Position numbers and translations under genes: made by a program. Shown piece by piece: positions 12,831 to 27,660 of a stretch of 27,970 nt of DNA. How positions within the stretch are numbered: the first letter of the stretch is position 1; each line of letters begins with the position of its first letter. Source of the DNA: a virus; IMG/VR virus record IMGVR_UViG_3300018083_000102, positions 1-27,970 of that record; one strand, given 5' to 3'. The notes beneath the pieces were generated by a model. The model did not search any database. It saw only the letters and a list, made by a program, of their open reading frames with translations, and had not been told where the DNA came from.

Positions 12831-13503
12831 GAAAGGCTTCGATGCGCTTGCGCGCCCGCCCTCCTTCGTCGCTCACTTGCATGATCGCACTGAACAGCTG
12901 CGTCACGGTACCAGCAGGGATCGTGTCGGGGTGAATGAGGTTCTGCGCAGCGTCTTCGTCTTTGCGTTGCGGCACGAACTTGATCGGCCGATAGCTGCTG
13001 AAGCAAGACGCAGTGCAGATGTGTCGCGCGCGCACGAACGTGTCGACAGCCTGCTCTGCTTGCGCGTACGCCGCGCGTGCGGCGTTCACTTCGTCTGCGA
13101 TCGTCGCTGCTTCGAAGTCGAGCTCTGCTTGCACCATCGCTGCGAGCGACGGCGCGATGTCGGGCTCTGAGCGCAGCGCTTCGACGCGCTTGCACTTCTC
13201 CGCTGCTTCGCTCACGCCCTCGATGCCGGCAGTGACAGTCGCACGCTGAAAGCCAGCCATGCGGTCTTGCCCTTCGCTGCCCATCTTCTTCAGCACGTCG
13301 ACCCATTTGGCGAGCTTCTCAGGCCCCTCGGGCAGCGCTTCGAGATCTGCGTTCTCTTTCGACACGTGCGGGTGCAGCAGCACGAGGTTGCCCCAATACG
13401 CGCGGAAGTAGTCTTGCTGCCCGACGCTCTTGTAGTGCCAGCGAGCGATCCCGATCACGAGAAAGCCGCGCGCTTCAGCGACCATCTGCTCGAGGACGTT
13501 CAT
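12742..13503 (-). CDS. Tail assembly chaperone G-like protein
   Basis: 253 residues from an ATG overlapping the previous stop (ATGA), immediately before the tape measure. The start MNVLEQMVAEARGFLVIGIA is followed by a helical middle (LDFEAATIADEVNAARAAYA). The last part, after the frameshift site at 12832, is basic and low in hydrophobics (HDRKALRQKAKRAHARRRSR), as if it were only the unshifted end. In lambda-like phages gpG and the frameshift product gpGT bind the tape measure and guide tail tube assembly. Position and the second overlapping frame support this role more than sequence likeness does. Confidence 0.65.
   Translation of the reverse strand: MNVLEQMVAEARGFLVIGIARWHYKSVGQQDYFRAYWGNLVLLHPHVSKENADLEALPEGPEKLAKWVDVLKKMGSEGQDRMAGFQRATVTAGIEGVSEAAEKCKRVEALRSEPDIAPSLAAMVQAELDFEAATIADEVNAARAAYAQAEQAVDTFVRARHICTASCFSSYRPIKFVPQRKDEDAAQNLIHPDTIPAGTVTQLFSAIMQVSDEGGRARKRIEAFRPDDTAHARHDRKALRQKAKRAHARRRSR
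12829..12834 (-). promoter_or_regulatory. Candidate programmed frameshift site TTT-CGA
   Basis: In the G-like frame the codons read GAA GCC TTT CGA CCC. A tRNA-Phe on TTT can slip one base forward onto TTC, an equal or better pair, while CGA waits in the A site; reading then continues GAC CCG in the T frame. The net shift is +1 (formally equal to -2). The assignment of the exact site is inference. Confidence 0.45.
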
Positions 13504-13757
13504 CGCTCGCCCCGAGCACGCTCGGCTTCTGCGAGCTCGCGCGCGTCGACGCGCTGCGTCAGCATCTCAGGCGTGTACGCCTTGTGCTTGCGCGTCCAGA
13601 GCTCGTGCTCGAGCTCGAGCGTGTCAAACGGATCGAGCCACTGCCCCGTAGTCTCGACGAGCCAACGTCCGTCGAGCTTGTGCCACCACTCGCCGTCGAT
13701 CTTCACGAACTCGGCACCTTTGCCGCCTGCGTAGGGAATGACGTCTTCGATCTGCAT
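13500..13757 (-). CDS. Small hypothetical tail-region protein
   Basis: 85 residues, with a GAGAGGAAG ribosome site just before ATG 13757. It has a short beta-rich domain, MQIEDVIPYAGGKGAEFVKI then GEWWHKLDGRWLVETTGQWL, and a helical charged C-terminus (MLTQRVDARELAEAERARGE). It lies between the tail tube genes and the chaperone gene and overlaps the chaperone start by four bases. No family is recognised. Confidence 0.65.
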   Translation of the reverse strand: MQIEDVIPYAGGKGAEFVKIDGEWWHKLDGRWLVETTGQWLDPFDTLELEHELWTRKHKAYTPEMLTQRVDARELAEAERARGER

Positions 13758-13784
13758 CGCTTCCTCTCATGGTCGTGTCGGGCT

Positions 13785-13988
13785 TCAGCGCTCGACTTCG
13801 ACCGCGTAACCAGGCTCGAGCTCGACTCGCAGCGCGCTCGTGTCGTCGAAGAGCCGCACGTCCCCGTTGACCGGGTTCGCGCGAATGCCAGCGACGACGA
13901 ACGCAGCGACGCCCTCGATCTTGACCTTGTCGCCCACACGCACGTTCGAGGCTTTCGTCGTCGTGTGCTCGTGCTTCGTCTTGCTCAT
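13785..13988 (-). CDS. Small hypothetical protein, SH3-like beta content
   Basis: 67 residues from ATG 13988, three bases after the tail tube stop. After a Lys/His/Thr start (MSKTKHEHTTTKASNVR) it reads VGDKVKIEGVAAFVVAG and VRLFDDTSALRVELEPGYAV, a compact all-beta pattern such as a small barrel. It could be a tail accessory protein, judging by its place between the tube and chaperone genes. No family is recognised. Confidence 0.6.
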   Translation of the reverse strand: MSKTKHEHTTTKASNVRVGDKVKIEGVAAFVVAGIRANPVNGDVRLFDDTSALRVELEPGYAVEVER

Positions 13989-16358: not shown

Positions 16359-16724
16359 TCATCCTCGGGTCTGCTTCGACGTGGGCTTCTTCTCGACGTG
16401 CTCGACAGCAGGCGGGGGCGCGTCGGCGCGCGGGAGCTCTGCGACGTCGACGTGCTTCTCGGCGGGCGCAGCGTCGCGCTTGCGCGCGTTCACGTAGCCG
16501 CCGGTCGGCTGCACGCGCGTCGTGACTTTCAGCGCTGCAGCGGCGACGAGTCGGTCGAGCGGCACGCCGTCGACCTCGAGACGAAGAACGCCGTGCTCGA
16601 CGTTCACGCCGAGCAGCGGCCAGCCGGCGACGTCCTCGAGCGTGAGCTTCGAGCCGACCGGGAGCGCTTCGCCAGTGCGCGAGCGCAGACCCGGGCGCTG
16701 CGTCACGAAGATGAGCTCTGCCAT
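16359..16724 (-). CDS. Hypothetical protein in the head-tail region
   Basis: 121 residues from ATG 16724 in a TGATG overlap with the signal-peptide gene. The N-terminal half (MAELIFVTQRPGLRSRTGEA; KLTLEDVAGWPLLGVNVEHG) looks like a small beta domain. The C-terminal third is disordered, rich in Pro, Lys, Ala and Glu (APPPAVEHVEKKPTSKQTRG). I do not recognise it. Its place suggests a structural accessory protein. Confidence 0.6.
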   Translation of the reverse strand: MAELIFVTQRPGLRSRTGEALPVGSKLTLEDVAGWPLLGVNVEHGVLRLEVDGVPLDRLVAAAALKVTTRVQPTGGYVNARKRDAAPAEKHVDVAELPRADAPPPAVEHVEKKPTSKQTRG

Positions 16725-17410
16725 CAGAGGATCTCCACCGACAGATCGTCGAGACGGGCAGACGTCGACGCTGTCGTCGAGCTCCACTTGCCCGACACGC
16801 TGATCACGAGCGCGCTCGACGTCGCCATGTTCGTCGACGCGAGAATGACGGTGTCGGCTACTTCGGTGCCGCCAGTGTCGGTCGTCCACGACCCTTGCCC
16901 GATGACGGCCGACGTCGCGCTCGGCGCGGCGCGGCAGACGAGCGTGAAGTTGAAGTTGTGGAAGTCGGTTGTCGCGCCCGGGTTCACTGCTGTCGTCGTG
17001 AGCAGCGTCGTGCCGGTCATCGCCGCGGAGCCGATGTAGAGCTTCACTTCGAGCGTGTCAGCGCCCGACGCGTCCGCGACAGTGACGCGACCGGCGATCC
17101 GGACACGCGTCCCCGCCTTGCACGTGTTCGCGGGCATCGTGTACAACTGCGCGAACGCGACGTGCGCGCTCGCACCAGCCGACGCGAGCAGCGTGTCGCT
17201 CGACGAGACAGCCTGATACGCGCGCCCGCCGACGATCTTCTGGGTGCCGCCCGCTACACCGTCTTGCGTGTAGACCCGCCCGTACGGGACGAAGGGCACG
17301 TTGATCGTCGTCGAGCCGCCGTTCGCGCCTGTGACGGCAGCGAACGCGGGCAGCGCGACTGTCAGCAGCGCGACGAGCAGCAGCACCGAGTTGCGAATGC
17401 GAGCAAGCAT
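16724..17410 (-). CDS. Beta-rich protein with Sec signal peptide, encoded among head genes
   Basis: 228 residues, with a GGGAG ribosome site before ATG 17410. The start is a textbook signal peptide: basic MLARIRN, a hydrophobic core SVLLLVALLTVAL and PAFA at the probable cleavage site (after about residue 24). The mature part is Thr/Ser/Gly/Ala-rich and all-beta (RVRIAGRVTVADASGADTLE; VKLYIGSAAMTG; SSALVISVSGKW), like phage jelly-roll fibre or decoration domains. It lies directly after the major capsid gene. A signal peptide is unexpected for a head protein; the product may be exported, or the hydrophobic start may have another use. Confidence 0.7.
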   Translation of the reverse strand: MLARIRNSVLLLVALLTVALPAFAAVTGANGGSTTINVPFVPYGRVYTQDGVAGGTQKIVGGRAYQAVSSSDTLLASAGASAHVAFAQLYTMPANTCKAGTRVRIAGRVTVADASGADTLEVKLYIGSAAMTGTTLLTTTAVNPGATTDFHNFNFTLVCRAAPSATSAVIGQGSWTTDTGGTEVADTVILASTNMATSSALVISVSGKWSSTTASTSARLDDLSVEIL

Positions 17411-17420
17411 GCTGTGCTCC

Positions 17421-18374
17421 CTACGCGATGACGGTCGGGAAGAAGACGCCGCAGACGGTCGACACGACTTCGAACGCGATGTCGCACTGCACTTCGATGA
17501 AGCGCGAGTGACGCTCTTCGACGTAGTAGTCGTAGGTGCGCAGACCGTTCGCGCCCGTTCCCGGCTCGCTCTTGTTCACGATGTTGTAGCCGGCTGCGGG
17601 CGTGTCGAGCGCAGCGGAGGCCGGCGAGAACACAGCGAGCATGGACTTCCCGGCGATCGCCGAGTAGCTCGCGGTCGCGCCTTCTGCCGCCGTGTTCTCG
17701 ACTGCAGTGCTCACGAGGTACTGATCGACGCCGAACAGCTGCGCGAGCAGTTCGTTCGTGATCGGGCCCGAGCTCGTGTGCTTCACGCGGTCTTTGATGT
17801 CCGCGTTGTTCTTCAGCCAGATGTCGGCCTCTGCGCCGATCAAGATCTTGTTCAGCTTGCGACCGCCGATCTTGCGCGACTGCACGAGCAAGTTCATCTG
17901 GATGTCCTTCACGGGGTCGCCACCGACAGTGTCGAACGTCGTGAAGTCGGTCCCCGCAACGAGGTCGGTGAAGACCGACGCTGCGAAGATCTCGGTCATG
18001 AACTTCTTCTCCATGCGCCGCATGACGTTGTCGGTGCAGAAGAGCATCGCGTTCACGTCGGGGCGCACAGCAGCGTCGGACTGCGCCTGAATCTCCTTCG
18101 GGATCTTCCGGCGCAACGCGTACTGCGTCGTCTTGTACGACTGCGTCGTGAGGTCGACTTCGCCTTCGACAGCGAGTGCGCCCGGGGCGCGCTGCGCAGC
18201 TTCGAGCCGCAAGAAGTCTTCTTCGCTCCAGACGTAGTACACGCCTGCTTGCTGATCGACGCCGACGTTCGGGAAGAACTGCGGCCACACGAACTCTTCT
18301 TGCGCGTTCGCCCACCCGACACTGGCTGTCGTGAGCGGGACCGAAACGTGTACGTCTGCGAGATTCGGCTTCAC
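17421..18374 (-). CDS. Major capsid protein
   Basis: 317 residues from GTG 18374, with AAGGAG five bases upstream. The order decoration-capsid and the sequence features fit the capsid family with HK97-type fold: an N-terminal arm (MKPNLADVHVSVPLTTASVG), a segment with FVWPQFFPNVGVDQQAGVYY, a spine-helix region with NAMLFCTDNVMRRMEKKFMT, a middle (IGGRKLNKILIGAEADIWLK) and a C-terminal beta block (RTYDYYVEERHSRFIEVQCD). There is no separate delta domain, since a scaffold gene precedes it. The identification rests on length, position and pattern. Confidence 0.8.
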   Translation of the reverse strand: MKPNLADVHVSVPLTTASVGWANAQEEFVWPQFFPNVGVDQQAGVYYVWSEEDFLRLEAAQRAPGALAVEGEVDLTTQSYKTTQYALRRKIPKEIQAQSDAAVRPDVNAMLFCTDNVMRRMEKKFMTEIFAASVFTDLVAGTDFTTFDTVGGDPVKDIQMNLLVQSRKIGGRKLNKILIGAEADIWLKNNADIKDRVKHTSSGPITNELLAQLFGVDQYLVSTAVENTAAEGATASYSAIAGKSMLAVFSPASAALDTPAAGYNIVNKSEPGTGANGLRTYDYYVEERHSRFIEVQCDIAFEVVSTVCGVFFPTVIA

Positions 18375-18383
18375 GTGATCTCC

Positions 18384-18749
18384 TTAGGCCTGGCAGCCGG
18401 TGTGAAGGACGCAAGACCCGATCGCGTTCGCGCCGCCGCCGTTCTCCATCAGCGTGCACGAGCCGTCGTCGCCAGCACTCGCTGCGCTCGCGAGTCCCGA
18501 CGCGTCGGGCGCGATGCTCGCGCCGACAGTGAGCGTGCCCGCCTGCTTCACCTTCGACAGCCCTGCGATCATGACCGCCGCCTCTTCGCCGAGCGCAGCG
18601 GGCTTGTTCTGCAGGATGCCGATGAAGCGCTCGCCGTCACCAGCGAGAGCGATGCCCGTCGACGTCTGCTTCACGAACTTGTAGCGGTGCGACGACAAGT
18701 CGCCGCTCGCCGGCCACGAGATCACGATTCCTTCTTGAGACTTCGCCAC
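18384..18749 (-). CDS. Capsid decoration protein (DUF2190-like)
   Basis: 121 residues from GTG 18749, with a GGAGGAC ribosome site. The sequence is a small beta barrel type: GIVISWPASGDLSSHRYKFV, then RFIGILQNKPAALGEEAAVM and TVGASIAPDASGLASAASAG. The G-I-L-Q-N-x-P and GEEAAVMIAG turns are typical of DUF2190-type proteins encoded next to capsid genes. It should coat the mature capsid. Cys residues in the C-terminal part (GSCTL, GSCVLHTGC) could stabilise it. Confidence 0.7.
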   Translation of the reverse strand: MAKSQEGIVISWPASGDLSSHRYKFVKQTSTGIALAGDGERFIGILQNKPAALGEEAAVMIAGLSKVKQAGTLTVGASIAPDASGLASAASAGDDGSCTLMENGGGANAIGSCVLHTGCQA

Positions 18750-22936: not shown

Positions 22937-23269
22937 TCAGCCCGCCTTCGCCTTGATCGTGTTCGACACGACGAGCGCGATGAACTCGAGCACGAGCTCT
23001 TCGGCGCGTTCGTCGATGACGTCGACGCCGTCGACTTTCACTCTGAGCTCGAGCTCAGAAGCGAGCTCGTGCGCGAGCGCGTGTGCGTCGTTCTCGTCGA
23101 ACTTGCCGTCAGCCACGGCATCAGCGATGCGCGCGCCGACCTTCGGGAAGTGCTGCCCGACTTCTGCGAGCACCTTCAGCACTTGAAGTGCCTTCAGCAT
23201 GACCTTCGCGACCTCCTGCGCCACGAGTATGGCGCGAATCGTTGCGACAAGGCCAACGAGCGGGCCCAT
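22937..23269 (-). CDS. Small helical protein with hydrophobic N-terminus
   Basis: 110 residues from ATG 23269 in a TGATG overlap with the YkuD-like gene. The N-terminal MGPLVGLVATIRAILVAQEV, then AKVMLKALQVLKVLAEVGQH, looks amphipathic and may associate with membrane. The second half is acidic and helical (ADGKFDENDAHALAHELASE; DERAEELVLEFIALVVS). It sits in the putative lysis module. The function is unknown; a holin partner or antiholin is possible but unproven. Confidence 0.6.
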   Translation of the reverse strand: MGPLVGLVATIRAILVAQEVAKVMLKALQVLKVLAEVGQHFPKVGARIADAVADGKFDENDAHALAHELASELELRVKVDGVDVIDERAEELVLEFIALVVSNTIKAKAG

Positions 23270-23877
23270 CAGTCGAGCAGCGTGTACGTGAAGCTCTTGC
23301 CGTAGACGCGCGACGAGCGCTGCACGAGCGACCAAAACTCGCGGTACTCTTTCGAGTCCTTGAACACCTGACAGCCTGCAGACCACGCGCCGACTTCGAC
23401 GCGCGACGGGTCGAGGTTGTCGAACGGGTTCGTATCCGCGGCGTGGATGTTGATGCCGAAGACGCCCTCGATCGCTTCGTCGAGTCGCGTCTCGACGTCG
23501 AGAATGGCGTCGCGGTTCACGTCGCGCACGATGCGCATCGGCTTGTCTTGCACGAGCGCTGCGTATCGACCCTTGTGCACGCCGATGCGGTGCGAACGAC
23601 GATACTGCCCGGGCAGCAAGATCGCGCAGCCGCTTCTGCGCATCGGGTCGTGCAAGTACGTGAGCCCGGGGTCGGTCGTGATCGTGAACACTGCGTCGAC
23701 CCACACGTTCGGGAGCTCTTTGTAGACGACGTGAAGCTCGTCGTCGAACCCGCCCGCACGACGCGAGCTCGAGCGCACGCCGATGATGTTCAAGTTCAGA
23801 AGCCCCTGCTCGAAGACGGCATAGTGCTTCGCGTACATGAGTTTCAAGATCGTGGGCACGCCCGAGTGCAGCTGCAT
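23269..23877 (-). CDS. YkuD/L,D-transpeptidase-like cysteine enzyme, candidate endolysin
   Basis: 202 residues from ATG 23877 in a TGATG overlap with the holin-like gene. The C-terminal half carries HRIGVHKGRYAALVQ (96-110), IVRDVNRDAILD (116-127), FGINIHAAD (140-148) and VGAWSAGCQVF (162-172). G-x-N-I-H followed by S-x-G-C matches the catalytic His/Cys arrangement of YkuD domains (H145, C169), which join or cut peptidoglycan cross-bridges. Position after a holin-like gene suggests a lysis enzyme. The family name is by motif; a virion-bound or wall-remodelling role is also possible. Confidence 0.6.
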   Translation of the reverse strand: MQLHSGVPTILKLMYAKHYAVFEQGLLNLNIIGVRSSSRRAGGFDDELHVVYKELPNVWVDAVFTITTDPGLTYLHDPMRRSGCAILLPGQYRRSHRIGVHKGRYAALVQDKPMRIVRDVNRDAILDVETRLDEAIEGVFGINIHAADTNPFDNLDPSRVEVGAWSAGCQVFKDSKEYREFWSLVQRSSRVYGKSFTYTLLD

Positions 23878-24104
23878 CACCGTCTGCGCCCCTTCAAGAT
23901 CTCGAGCACTGCGACAGCGCCGAGCGAGAGCCCGACGAGGAACGTCACCCCGAGCAGCGCAGTGAAGCCTGAGCCAGTGAGCTCGCCCGACGCGAGCAGC
24001 ACTGAAGGCGTCGGTCGCGCGAGCTCTACGCCCTTCGCGACCGACGCGAGGAGGGGAACCCCCGCGACTTGTGCGACCCTCGACAGCACGACTCCCCTCC
24101 CCAT
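23877..24104 (-). CDS. Small membrane protein, candidate holin
   Basis: 75 residues from ATG 24104, two bases after the upstream stop. One clear transmembrane helix (46-68: FTALLGVTFLVGLSLGAVAV) ends in the basic LEILKGRRR, a typical cytoplasmic tail. A weaker hydrophobic stretch lies near 12-22. Size, topology and overlap with the YkuD-like gene fit a holin, which would open the inner membrane at the end of infection. It has no strong family signature. Its ATG is followed by a G-rich MGRGVV start. Confidence 0.55.
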   Translation of the reverse strand: MGRGVVLSRVAQVAGVPLLASVAKGVELARPTPSVLLASGELTGSGFTALLGVTFLVGLSLGAVAVLEILKGRRR

Positions 24105-24106
24105 CT

Positions 24107-25084
24107 TCAGAGCGCGCCGTATGCGGCTGCGATCTTCGAGACGATTGCTGCGCGCATCGTACCTGAAGCGCGCACGTTCGGCCCGATCTCGAACTGAACA
24201 TAGTGCGAGGCGGCGAGTCGATTGCCGAGGTTGTTCAAGTCAGCGCCAGCGATCTCGACAGTGTCGCTCGAGCGCGCGATCGTCACGCCTGAAAGCGCAG
24301 CGTCGCCTTGCAGCGCAGTCACGAGCGCGTCGACGAACGCGTTCTGCGCAGTCGGGCAGCCGATGTCGATGCGGCTGTTCGTGCTCTGCCCGTGAAACGC
24401 GAGACAGTACGACCAGCCGCGCGCGTCGATCGTGTCGAGCACGGGGTTCAGTCGCACGCACGTGTCGACGGTAGAGATGTGGTGCCTGTCGTATGAGCTC
24501 TGCCCGCCGAGCCCGTAGCCCTTGCCAATCCACAGCGACGTGAGCTTCGCGTTCGGCGACGCGGCGTCGAGCGCTGTCTTCGCGGCAGTCGCTAGCGTGT
24601 CGGTGTCGGCTTCGATGTTGCCGCCGTGCGGCGCGATCACGATCATGACCGTGTTCGAGCCGTTGTCGGTCTTCGACTCGTAGTATTGCCCCGCTGCTTG
24701 CGCTGCTGCGTCGTCGACGGGCGTGTCGGGCGCGTACGCAGTGAGCGTGCCTGTCGTCGGCAGCGTCGCGTTCAGTCGCGTCGCTGCGTCGGTGCCGATG
24801 CGCACTTCGGTGATGACTGAGTGCGACTCGAGAATCTCGACTGTCAGCGGGCACTTGTACGAGCCGATCGTGAGCACGACTTGATCGTTCAGCAGCAGCA
24901 GCCCGCTCGCCTTCATCTGCCGATAGAGGTCGACGTCGACGCCGATGTGCTCGCGTCGTCGACGCGCGTTCGCGATGTCGGTCGGGTTCGTCGCAGCTGC
25001 GACAGTGACGCTGAGCGGGAAGCTGCGCGACGTCGTGACGCTGCGCGTCGTGTCGCCGCGACACGTGAGCGAGCCGAACCCCAC
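24107..25084 (-). CDS. Poly-gamma-glutamate hydrolase-like zinc enzyme
   Basis: 325 residues from a GTG two bases after the upstream stop. The catalytic region starts near 145: MIVIAPHGGNIEADTDTLAT (H153, E158), then DRHHISTVDT (199-208), YCLAFHGQ (226-233), GADLNNLGNR (280-289) and SHYVQFEIGPNVR (293-305). APHGG-x-IE, HHIST and the HGQ motif are the pattern of the poly-gamma-glutamate hydrolase family (PghP/DUF867), a metallocarboxypeptidase-related fold with zinc held by His and Glu. The first about 140 residues could be a linker or virion-anchoring domain. No signal peptide is seen, so it is either on the virion or released at lysis. It probably cuts polyglutamate capsule. Confidence 0.75.
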   Translation of the reverse strand: MGFGSLTCRGDTTRSVTTSRSFPLSVTVAAATNPTDIANARRRREHIGVDVDLYRQMKASGLLLLNDQVVLTIGSYKCPLTVEILESHSVITEVRIGTDAATRLNATLPTTGTLTAYAPDTPVDDAAAQAAGQYYESKTDNGSNTVMIVIAPHGGNIEADTDTLATAAKTALDAASPNAKLTSLWIGKGYGLGGQSSYDRHHISTVDTCVRLNPVLDTIDARGWSYCLAFHGQSTNSRIDIGCPTAQNAFVDALVTALQGDAALSGVTIARSSDTVEIAGADLNNLGNRLAASHYVQFEIGPNVRASGTMRAAIVSKIAAAYGAL

Positions 25085-25086
25085 GG

Positions 25087-25698
25087 CTACACCGGTGCGG
25101 ACGGGGCCGCTGCTCCGCCCCAGCCCGTATAGATCAACTCAATCCAGTGCAGATAGTACGAGCCGCTCGTGTAGTCGTCGCGCGCGTCTGAGCTCGCGAG
25201 TCGCTCGAGCTTCATCGCGAAGAGCTTCGTCGGGTCGAAGAGCGAGCCGTCGATGGTGATGTCGAACACGGTCGGCACGTGCGCAGTCTGCGCGCTCATG
25301 TCTTGGTAGACCGTCTGCGCGTTGGGCAGCGCAGCAGCGAGAGCGACGCCCACGTCGTACACAGCGCCGGTCCACTTGTACGCGACCTCGAGCCCCGCTG
25401 AGCCCGACGCGCCGATCGTGTTGTGCAGTCGACAGATCACGCTCGCGACGCCAGTGCGCAGCGGCAGCGGCTGGAAGATGAAGCGCCCTTCGCTGTCGGC
25501 AGTGTTGCTGAGCAGGCGCGCAGCGACGTCGCGGTTCGAGCCAGTCGTCGCGTCGGCGTCGTACGTGCCCATCTCGGGCGGCACGGGGAACTTCTGCGTG
25601 CCGTGCACGATGACAGCGAGCTTCTCGGCTTGCGCGACGCTGAGCCCGCTTCCCGACGAACTGAGCCCGCCCGTTCTTCCTGCCAGTGTCAGAGACAT
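25087..25698 (-). CDS. Virion-type hypothetical protein
   Basis: 203 residues from ATG 25698, with AGGTGG five bases upstream, overlapping the deacetylase gene by ten bases. After a Gly/Ser-rich start (MSLTLAGRTGGLSSSGSGL) it has beta-rich blocks (EVAYKWTGAVYDVGVALAAA; VPTVFDITIDGSLFDPTKLF; YTSGSYYLHWIELIYTGWGG). The pattern resembles phage fibre or spike sandwich domains. It lies between two surface-polymer enzymes, which suggests it mounts them or belongs to the same appendage. No family is recognised. Confidence 0.6.
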   Translation of the reverse strand: MSLTLAGRTGGLSSSGSGLSVAQAEKLAVIVHGTQKFPVPPEMGTYDADATTGSNRDVAARLLSNTADSEGRFIFQPLPLRTGVASVICRLHNTIGASGSAGLEVAYKWTGAVYDVGVALAAALPNAQTVYQDMSAQTAHVPTVFDITIDGSLFDPTKLFAMKLERLASSDARDDYTSGSYYLHWIELIYTGWGGAAAPSAPV

Positions 25699-26738
25699 AG
25701 GTGCCACCTGTCGATCGCAGTCTCAGTGTCAGACCACGCATCGGCGACGTTCGCACCGAAGCGGCGCACGTGCCCGTCTGCGTCTGAGTTTCGCTGATGG
25801 TTCAGCCCGAGCTTCGTCGTGAAGATGAGCGAGTACCCGACCGACTCAGCCGTATCGACGAGCGCTTCGTCGTACTGCCCGAACGGCCACGCGACAGCGT
25901 ACGTGTCGACGCCAGTTTGCGCGAGCAGCGTGTCGTGACACGTGGTGAGGTCTGCTGCGCGCTCGACGTCTGACATCGTCATGTAGAGCCCGACGCCGCC
26001 GGGGTTCGAGTGCGCTGCGTGCGAGTGACACGCGAGCTCGACTGCGTCGGGGTACGTCGCGAGTCCGGCGTTGATCTCAGCCCACGTCGCCCACGTCGCA
26101 GTCGTGCCCGGGCGGTTGGTGATGATGAAGAACGTTCCGACCATGCCGTGCTCGTGAAGCAGCTGCGCCCCGAACGCGAAGTGCGAGTCGTAGCCGTCGT
26201 CGAACGTGAGCACGATCGGGTTCGCGGGCAGCGAGCCGACCCCGTTGAGGCAGTCGCTCAGTTCTTCGAGCGTGATCGTCGTGTAGTCGAGAGCGTCGAG
26301 CGCATCGAGCGTCGTCTCGAAGTTCGTCGACGTCGCGCCGAGGTCGTGAAACACGATCACTGGCACGCCGTTCGTCGACGGGCACACGTCTGTCGGGCGC
26401 ACCCACAAGACGTCTTCGACGTCGTACCCCGACAGCACGGGCAGCTTCGTGTCGCTCGCTGCGATGACCCACGTGTCGGCGGGGATGCTCACTGCGCCGG
26501 TCGTGTTGTACGGGCGCACGAACGTGACTCGATCGTCGTTCACGCGCACGAGGATGTTGAACTGATTCGGGTTGATCGTCGCGCCCCACGAAGAGTTGTA
26601 GAGCGAGAGCTTGTCAGCGCCGTGCGCTGCGTTCAGCCCGTCGAACGTCTGCGCGTCGATGCCGTTCGGCGACACGAGCACGTAGTCGCTCCCGACGAGC
26701 GCGTGAGCGAGCGCGCAGAGCAGCGCGAACGCGACCAT
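25689..26738 (-). CDS. NodB-type polysaccharide deacetylase (PgaB/IcaB-like)
   Basis: 349 residues from ATG 26738, one base after the previous stop; a TTG at 26756 would add MRWLPE and give a better signal peptide. Residues 1-13 (MVAFALLCALAHA) look like a signal peptide without charge. The NodB domain (about 125-345) has PVIVFHDLG (126-134), TFDDG (178-182), HSHAAH (238-243) and AWPFGQYD (283-290). D181 with H238 and H243 match the metal ligands and five-residue spacing of PgaB-type enzymes; D180 is the likely base. It removes acetyl groups from poly-N-acetylglucosamine-like surface polysaccharide. It is likely part of an appendage or exported. Confidence 0.8.
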   Translation of the reverse strand: MVAFALLCALAHALVGSDYVLVSPNGIDAQTFDGLNAAHGADKLSLYNSSWGATINPNQFNILVRVNDDRVTFVRPYNTTGAVSIPADTWVIAASDTKLPVLSGYDVEDVLWVRPTDVCPSTNGVPVIVFHDLGATSTNFETTLDALDALDYTTITLEELSDCLNGVGSLPANPIVLTFDDGYDSHFAFGAQLLHEHGMVGTFFIITNRPGTTATWATWAEINAGLATYPDAVELACHSHAAHSNPGGVGLYMTMSDVERAADLTTCHDTLLAQTGVDTYAVAWPFGQYDEALVDTAESVGYSLIFTTKLGLNHQRNSDADGHVRRFGANVADAWSDTETAIDRWHLCL

Positions 26739-26739
26739 C

Positions 26740-27660
26740 TCAGGCAGCCACCGCAAGCGACTGCCCGGGCACGTGGCGCATCGCGTTGATGTAGAGCGCC
26801 TTCACGCAGCCCGTGAACGCGCCCCCGCCGTTCGAGTCGACGAGTCCGATCGCAGCGACCATGTCTTTGTTCAGCGTGCTGCCCGCTGCGTTCGGGGTGT
26901 TGTCTGCAGCCATCGTGCCGAGCGCGTCGCGCGAGTACCACGCAGACGGCGGCGTGAGCCCCGACGCTGTGCCGAACGCGACGTCAGTACCGCCCGGGGT
27001 GATGCGGTTGCGAAGCGCAGTCACTGTGCCCAGCCCAGTGATCGACGACACGAGCGAGTTGGAGTTGTTGTACGTGCCGCGCTGGATGCTGCCCCCGACA
27101 GCTGCTGCAGTCGTGAAGCCCGACTTGCAAGACCCGCCGTTGTTGAACGCAGACGTCGTCCCGAAGCCGCACGCGATGTGCTCTTGATTCGCGTTCGCAC
27201 TCGACGAGTCGATGACCCACACGAGATCGATGTACGAGTACATCGCGAGCAAGCCGAGCGACGTGCTCGACCACAACGCAGCGGGCACGATCTCGCTCAC
27301 GAGCTTGTAGAGGCACGGGCCGAGGATGTTGCCGTCGCCCCAATCGTCTGAGCACGCGCTCGAGCCCGACTGCATCTTCAGCCCGCTCGAGTCGATGAAG
27401 CAGCCGTTCGGGTCGGCGGTCAAGAAGTTCGCCGTGCCGTTCGCGAGCGTCCAGTCTTCGGTCACGCCTGGGAACGCGATCGACTTCGCGCCCGCTGCGC
27501 GCCCGAGATCGGCGACAGTCGCGCCTTGAAAGAGTCGCGTCGCGAGATTGACGTACCCGCCGAGCATTCGATCGCGCGGGTACAAGAGCCCGCCCTGCGA
27601 CTGCGGGAGCACGCCGCACGGACAACGAAGGCTCAGCCCCTGATTGCCCCCGAGTGACAC
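26740..27660 (-). CDS. Cys-rich virion-type hypothetical protein
   Basis: 306 residues from a GTG one base after the upstream stop. It has about eight cysteines (RCPCG near 12-15, then GCF, SACSD, GPC, IACGF, GSCKS and a final TGCVK), Gly/Ser/Thr-rich loops and hydrophobic beta strands (LLAMYSYIDLVWVIDSSSAN). The pattern suggests a disulfide-rich or metal-binding extracellular beta domain, such as a receptor-binding or fibre component. No signal peptide is seen. It is in the same transcript as the deacetylase and the polyglutamate hydrolase. Confidence 0.6.
   Translation of the reverse strand: MSLGGNQGLSLRCPCGVLPQSQGGLLYPRDRMLGGYVNLATRLFQGATVADLGRAAGAKSIAFPGVTEDWTLANGTANFLTADPNGCFIDSSGLKMQSGSSACSDDWGDGNILGPCLYKLVSEIVPAALWSSTSLGLLAMYSYIDLVWVIDSSSANANQEHIACGFGTTSAFNNGGSCKSGFTTAAAVGGSIQRGTYNNSNSLVSSITGLGTVTALRNRITPGGTDVAFGTASGLTPPSAWYSRDALGTMAADNTPNAAGSTLNKDMVAAIGLVDSNGGGAFTGCVKALYINAMRHVPGQSLAVAA

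Follow-up and report, generated by a model that had tools for sequence, protein, structure and literature searches.

Phage genes for poly-gamma-glutamate (PGA) hydrolases of the PghP type were recorded in a 2015 survey only in Bacillus and Staphylococcus phages (PMC4497714). In PghP and PghL, mutagenesis and crystallography assigned zinc binding and catalysis to H40, E45, H78, H103 and E165 (in phiNIT1 numbering, zinc ligands H40, E45 and H103, and catalytic residues H78 and E165), and identified T80, S81 and R171 as substrate residues (PMC6506827). The PghP of phage phiNIT1 is a 208-aa single-domain protein, and its gene lies apart from the tail genes. A PGA-hydrolase domain is already annotated in gp129 of HCTV-1 and gp133 of HCTV-16, two tailed viruses of Haloarcula. 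A NodB-type domain on the virion is described in HFTV1, where it is the head of the capsid turret (PMC12494034). Both enzyme types are already known in viruses; what is unusual in the locus described here is their combination and the presence of a two-domain PghP in such a phage. In the paper collection searched, none mentions a poly-gamma-glutamate hydrolase, a polysaccharide deacetylase and phage together.

The phage genome and its gene order

The window, that is, the whole stretch of DNA analysed, was the 27,970-base virus record IMGVR_UViG_3300018083_000102. A twin contig in IMG/VR (IMGVR_UViG_3300021082_000064, 39,520 b) represented the same phage, with 99.99% identity to the window, and extended beyond its right end. 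Since the ends of the twin contig overlapped each other by about 145 bases (one indel), the genome was estimated at about 39.4 kb and taken to be nearly or fully covered. The twin contig read through the NodB-PghP region with no break; therefore, the enzyme pair is not an assembly joint. Scans of IMG/VR with single proteins gave no match beyond the twin contig, and the relatives of the portal were scattered and only about 39% identical.

On the minus strand, the order began with the terminase and GroES (both in the extension), a 132-aa protein, p306, NodB, p203 and PghP. These were followed by a 75-aa hydrophobic protein, an endolysin-family protein, two small proteins, the portal, a Mu-F-like head protein, the major capsid protein, a tape-measure-sized gene and more tail-region genes. 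The genes around the enzyme pair were as follows:

26740 to 27660, minus strand: p306, an ORF with no family match, immediately upstream of NodB (1-nt gap) and in one run with it
25689 to 26738, minus strand: NodB/CE4 polysaccharide deacetylase, 349 aa (PF01522, phmmer, AF2 model, kept residues)
25087 to 25698, minus strand: p203, 203 aa, no recognised family (homologue before PghP in phage L013)
24107 to 25084, minus strand: PghP-type zinc poly-gamma-glutamate hydrolase, 325 aa (PF05908, phrog_4175, kept residues, AF2 model)
23877 to 24104, minus strand: holin-like protein of 75 aa with a single strongly hydrophobic stretch (hydropathy), 2 nt after PghP
23269 to 23877, minus strand: endolysin-family protein (phrog_3000, E 8e-32; phrog_33083, E 8e-16)

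The first-pass annotation had placed the two enzymes one gene apart in the same transcript. On the minus strand, they did lie one gene apart in a tightly packed run, with gaps of -10 nt between NodB and p203 and +2 nt between p203 and PghP. The GC content at third codon positions was 0.83-0.87 in NodB, p203 and PghP, which indicated that all three are coding. The NodB ORF opened at a TTG (26756); the likely start is the ATG at 26738, because it lies 1 nt after the stop of p306. Family searches with the 75-aa holin-like protein and with p306 gave no match. From the packing (gaps of -10 to +2 nt), NodB, p203 and PghP would be carried on one transcript, and the adjoining lysis, head and tail genes suggest that the module is late. 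Promoter and terminator scans gave nothing above chance.

Other genes of the phage were also observed. The GroES co-chaperonin (Cpn10, 91 bits) was located between the terminase and the 132-aa gene (L006:9437-9757, minus strand, in the extension). Two N6/N4 DNA methylases scored above the cut-off, and a ParB-N-like protein fell slightly short of it (L006:11865-12797, 17973-18704 and 13218-13826, minus strand). Among the head and tail genes, a 228-aa protein (window 16724-17410, minus strand) had a clear signal peptide and no family match. The closest relatives of the endolysin-family protein were in crAss-like, Bacteroides and Pseudoalteromonas phages; it had no Pfam match, and its GINIH...SAGC stretch recalls the active sites of L,D-transpeptidases (YkuD). 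No tRNA genes were found in the phage.

Family, active site and fold of the two enzymes

Pfam analysis of NodB (ORF 25689-26756) revealed Polysacc_deac_1 (PF01522) at 51.1 bits against a curated cut-off of 23.1, and the motifs TFDDG, HSHAAH (H-x4-H) and WPFG were present as described in the first-pass annotation. The residues D180, D181, H238, H243 and H131 were kept, with D181, H238 and H243 being the Asp-His-His metal motif. The relatives found by phmmer were BpsB, PgaB and IcaB, BpsB being the closest. Structure prediction of both enzymes, proposed in the first-pass annotation as a check, was consistent with its assignments: the best PDB matches of the NodB AF2 model were BpsB, PgaB and IcaB, and the first three matches of the PghP AF2 model were 21dc, 3a9l and 5onj (PghP of phage PM1, PghP of phiNIT1 and YndL). 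Among the CE4 enzymes, the PNAG deacetylases were closest to NodB by both fold and sequence. The score of NodB against the PgaB equivalog TIGR03938 was 66.7 bits, below the cut-off of 321.9.

The NodB protein ended soon after the NodB domain, and the C-terminal glycoside-hydrolase domain of PgaB was absent. CE4 deacetylases are known to leave the polymer chain uncut, and since the chain-cutting domain of PgaB is absent, NodB should modify, not dissolve, its polymer. Based on sequence and model, it is expected to deacetylate a sugar polymer with no chain cleavage, and the earlier suggestion that it attacks the polymer or clears biofilm matrix is weakened.

The N-terminus of NodB was hydrophobic and signal-peptide-like (MVAFALLCALAHA), with an AHA site and no basic residue. 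An N-terminal region of about 100 aa belonged to no known family and was poorly modelled by AF2; the catalytic domain began at about residue 125, and residues 1-125 had no match among solved structures. In a tblastn search of 50,697 phage records, NodB matched 10 records, of which some are in fact bacterial DNA, and none of the 10 matches covered 80%. Most of the PgaB-like viral NodB relatives fetched carried ordinary signal peptides. The NodB profile also found gp31, the turret head protein of HFTV1 (E 4e-8), and so did the fold comparison. A 645-649-aa viral protein with a C-terminal NodB domain was seen in L072 and L073; by eye only, its N-terminal parts resemble a D-alanyl-D-alanine peptidase and a beta-lactamase-like domain.

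PghP (24107-25084) matched Gamma_PGA_hydro (PF05908) at 41.1 bits (curated Pfam cut-off 22) and phrog_4175. The PF05908 and PF01522 scores were both above the curated cut-offs, so these domain matches are not chance. The motifs of a PghP-type hydrolase named in the first-pass annotation (APHGG-x-IE, HHIST and HGQ) were found as APHGGNIE, HHIST and FHGQ, and the assignment was upheld by the catalytic residues: H153, E158, H202, H231 and E299 stood at the zinc and catalytic places and were invariant in the alignments. R305 was kept at the place of R171, and the substrate motif T-S read S-T, both being hydroxyl residues. The conservation of R171 was considered as a sign of L-Glu specificity and dropped, because R171 was invariant in all family members aligned. 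A profile of the PghP set found 3a9l at 7e-16. No known-phage relative of the window PghP was found by tblastn (50,697 phage records, E 0.01). On the basis of sequence and model, PghP should cleave poly-gamma-glutamate, a capsule polymer.

The layout of PghP was an N-terminal REH...RMG/RL domain followed by the PF05908 peptidase domain. The AF2 model, built with eight relatives, had good confidence across most of the catalytic domain, but its confidence was low in the N-terminal third. The nearest relatives were not the Bacillus enzymes; they formed a two-domain group with an N-terminal domain of the pattern REH...GQQVRI...LYTV...RL, whose members came from Nitrososphaerales, haloarchaea, Pyxidicoccus, Plesiocystis and phage L013. 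Among viral proteins, HCTV-1 gp129 gave the best fold match across both domains (301 columns); it has five RMG-type repeat motifs ahead of the hydrolase domain, and its gene follows closely on those for the tape measure and the baseplate hub. The sequence match between the N-terminal domain and the HCTV repeats was weak (total E 0.006); their probable kinship is better supported by the fold match and by the L013 tblastn match across both domains. Within the group, Nitrososphaerales archaeal contigs (L035, L036, L037 and L039) carried several divergent two-domain PghP genes, with three in MAG TH5895, and the Plesiocystis pacifica gene (L044:9533-10368) was split between two reading frames in the assembly.

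Peptidoglycan contains a gamma-D-glutamyl bond and N-acetyl sugars, and both enzymes could in principle act on it, with an accessory part in lysis or entry: PghP would be a gamma-glutamyl endopeptidase, and NodB would deacetylate the amino sugars. The adjoining endolysin-family gene fits such a role, as does the PDB comparison of the model, in which the PghP fold was related to Csd4 and amidase-type peptidoglycan enzymes. However, PGA hydrolases and PNAG deacetylases matched best, with peptidoglycan enzymes far behind, and the glutamate of peptidoglycan is D-Glu, whereas PghL, whose structure is solved, acts on stretches of L-glutamate (PMC6506827). Action on peptidoglycan is therefore considered very unlikely.

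The link of p203 to PghP and the proposed role of the module

Searches of Pfam, PHROG, NCBIfam and the PDB gave no match of note for p203; a match to antibody chains in the PDB search (E 0.04) was taken as chance. In phage L013, which is unrelated to the phage of the window, a 126-aa open fragment directly before PghP matched p203 with 26% identity over 114 aa (BLASTP E 7e-6, the value for a single comparison). A tail-sheath-like gene was located downstream in L013; its contig begins inside the p203 homologue, and an upstream NodB could not be seen there. L013 is the one piece of evidence for the link, but the joint retention of two genes in unrelated phages is a meaningful sign. Because a p203 relative adjoins PghP in an unrelated phage, the reading of p203 and PghP as one unit, probably on the virion, is favoured. 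The earlier idea that p203 could mount the enzymes was partly supported: the L013 homologue links p203 to PghP and not to the pair.

The favoured explanation, with a probability of roughly 0.45 (a figure that overlaps with those of the rival readings and is not meant to add to one with them), is a host-surface entry module, in which a virion unit of PghP and p203 is accompanied by a NodB modifying a GlcNAc polymer. The module would belong to a tailed phage and would probably be made late. PghP would bind zinc and cut the gamma-glutamyl bonds in a poly-gamma-glutamate-like coat, and the unit that it may form with p203, most likely a virion part, would open the coat during adsorption. NodB would take N-acetyl groups off a GlcNAc-type surface or matrix polymer and alter its charge and recognition with the chain uncut, acting from the virion or, once exported, outside the cell. 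Activity, substrates, virion location and timing are here what we infer.

This explanation is preferred because the families and folds fit and the residues at which mutation abolishes PghP function are conserved (PMC6506827), because the PghP fold matches a protein encoded next to the baseplate hub in HCTV-1, because the p203-PghP order recurs in a phage with a tail-sheath-like gene, and because neither PghP nor p203 has a signal peptide. A virion-mounted NodB also has a precedent in the HFTV1 turret head (PMC12494034). Against it, the export-like start of NodB and the signal peptides of its relatives misfit cytoplasmic virion assembly, the match to the HCTV repeats is weak and the N-terminal PghP model is of low confidence, and the module runs into holin-like and endolysin-family genes, as it would with a role at lysis time.

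The main rival reading is release at lysis, given that the gene run leads into a lysis-like pair and that the NodB start, like the signal peptides of its viral relatives, suggests export. Both enzymes would be made late and freed at or before lysis (NodB by export), loosening or altering capsule or matrix for progeny spread, and neither would be in the virion. PghP lies 2 nt upstream of the holin-like gene, with the endolysin-family gene next, and the single-domain phiNIT1 enzyme encoded apart from tail genes is also in keeping with such a role. However, release at lysis gives p203 no role, yet its link to PghP recurs; the N-terminal domain of PghP points to HCTV-1 gp129, and a NodB with no chain-cutting domain would not clear the matrix. 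We regard release at lysis as a tentative possibility.

A stronger form of the entry module is unlikely: in it, a PNAG-type deacetylase and a PGA hydrolase would sit on the same virion, with p203 joining them into a single entry device. If true, its target would be a host coat that contains a GlcNAc polymer as well as poly-gamma-glutamate, and the phage would lie outside the Bacillus and Staphylococcus range in which phage PghP was first known.

Rarity of the pair and comparison with known systems

NodB was above the cut-off in none of the 102 other viral PghP records (0/8, 0/19 named phages, 0/50 and 0/25), and PF05908 in none of the 16 viral NodB records, which makes 118 other virus records without the pair; this sample contains many fragments and leans to Bacillus and Staphylococcus, and absence there is no proof. 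One viral PghP record had a sub-threshold NodB match of 16 bits about 12 kb from PghP. A small home-made NodB profile detected none in the flanks (up to 10 kb) of PghP at 31 cellular genome loci. These counts agreed with the first-pass annotation, which knew of no described pair, and the pair is at least rare.

Its occurrence in no other record examined would also fit the independent acquisition of two neighbouring pieces of cargo in a variable region, without a shared function, and in L013 p203 goes with PghP on a contig whose start hides any NodB. The tight packing of the three genes, however, points to co-expression and to a degree of selection for it. Chance neighbourhood is, like release at lysis, a tentative possibility. 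The pair is a real, unusual combination of known parts, not a new kind of system.

Should the enzymes work together, the phage would have a means of dealing with a coat made of two polymers, and the pair could be put to direct use in matrix studies. The two-domain archaeal and myxobacterial type of PGA hydrolase occurs here as a stand-alone phage gene. Because the survey saw only Bacillus and Staphylococcus phages (PMC4497714), the window PghP bears on the reason for which PGA-hydrolase genes are present in species with no known PGA synthesis.

Compared with phiNIT1 PghP and B. subtilis PghL/YndL (PF05908, MEROPS M86), the window PghP had the same fold and zinc and catalytic residues, but was only about 20-24% identical and differed in its extra N-terminal domain, its p203 neighbour and the change of T-S to S-T in the substrate motif; the phage is also not of a Bacillus or Staphylococcus type, unlike phiNIT1. 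With HCTV-1 gp129 and HCTV-16 gp133, it shared the two-domain arrangement by fold. However, HCTV-1 carries the hydrolase at the C-terminal end of a 1045-aa product of its tail region, whereas that of the window is a separate 325-aa gene with a NodB gene nearby; neither HCTV-1 nor HCTV-16 has a NodB.

The window NodB had the catalytic domain, motifs and fold of the PNAG deacetylases PgaB/BpsB and IcaB, but it is phage-encoded, has an extra N-terminal region of about 100 aa and lacks both the PgaB glycoside-hydrolase domain and the biosynthesis genes. HFTV1 gp31 likewise combines a NodB-type domain with an extra N-terminal domain, and is on the virion; the window NodB is closer to BpsB/PgaB/IcaB and has a signal-peptide-like start, and no PghP is described alongside gp31. 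In Staphylococcus phage Alsa_4, a PghP region lies inside a CDS annotated as glycerophosphoryl diester phosphodiesterase. PghP is thus joined there, as in the window, with a second, different surface-polymer enzyme, although apparently in one fused protein and with a phosphodiesterase in place of NodB.
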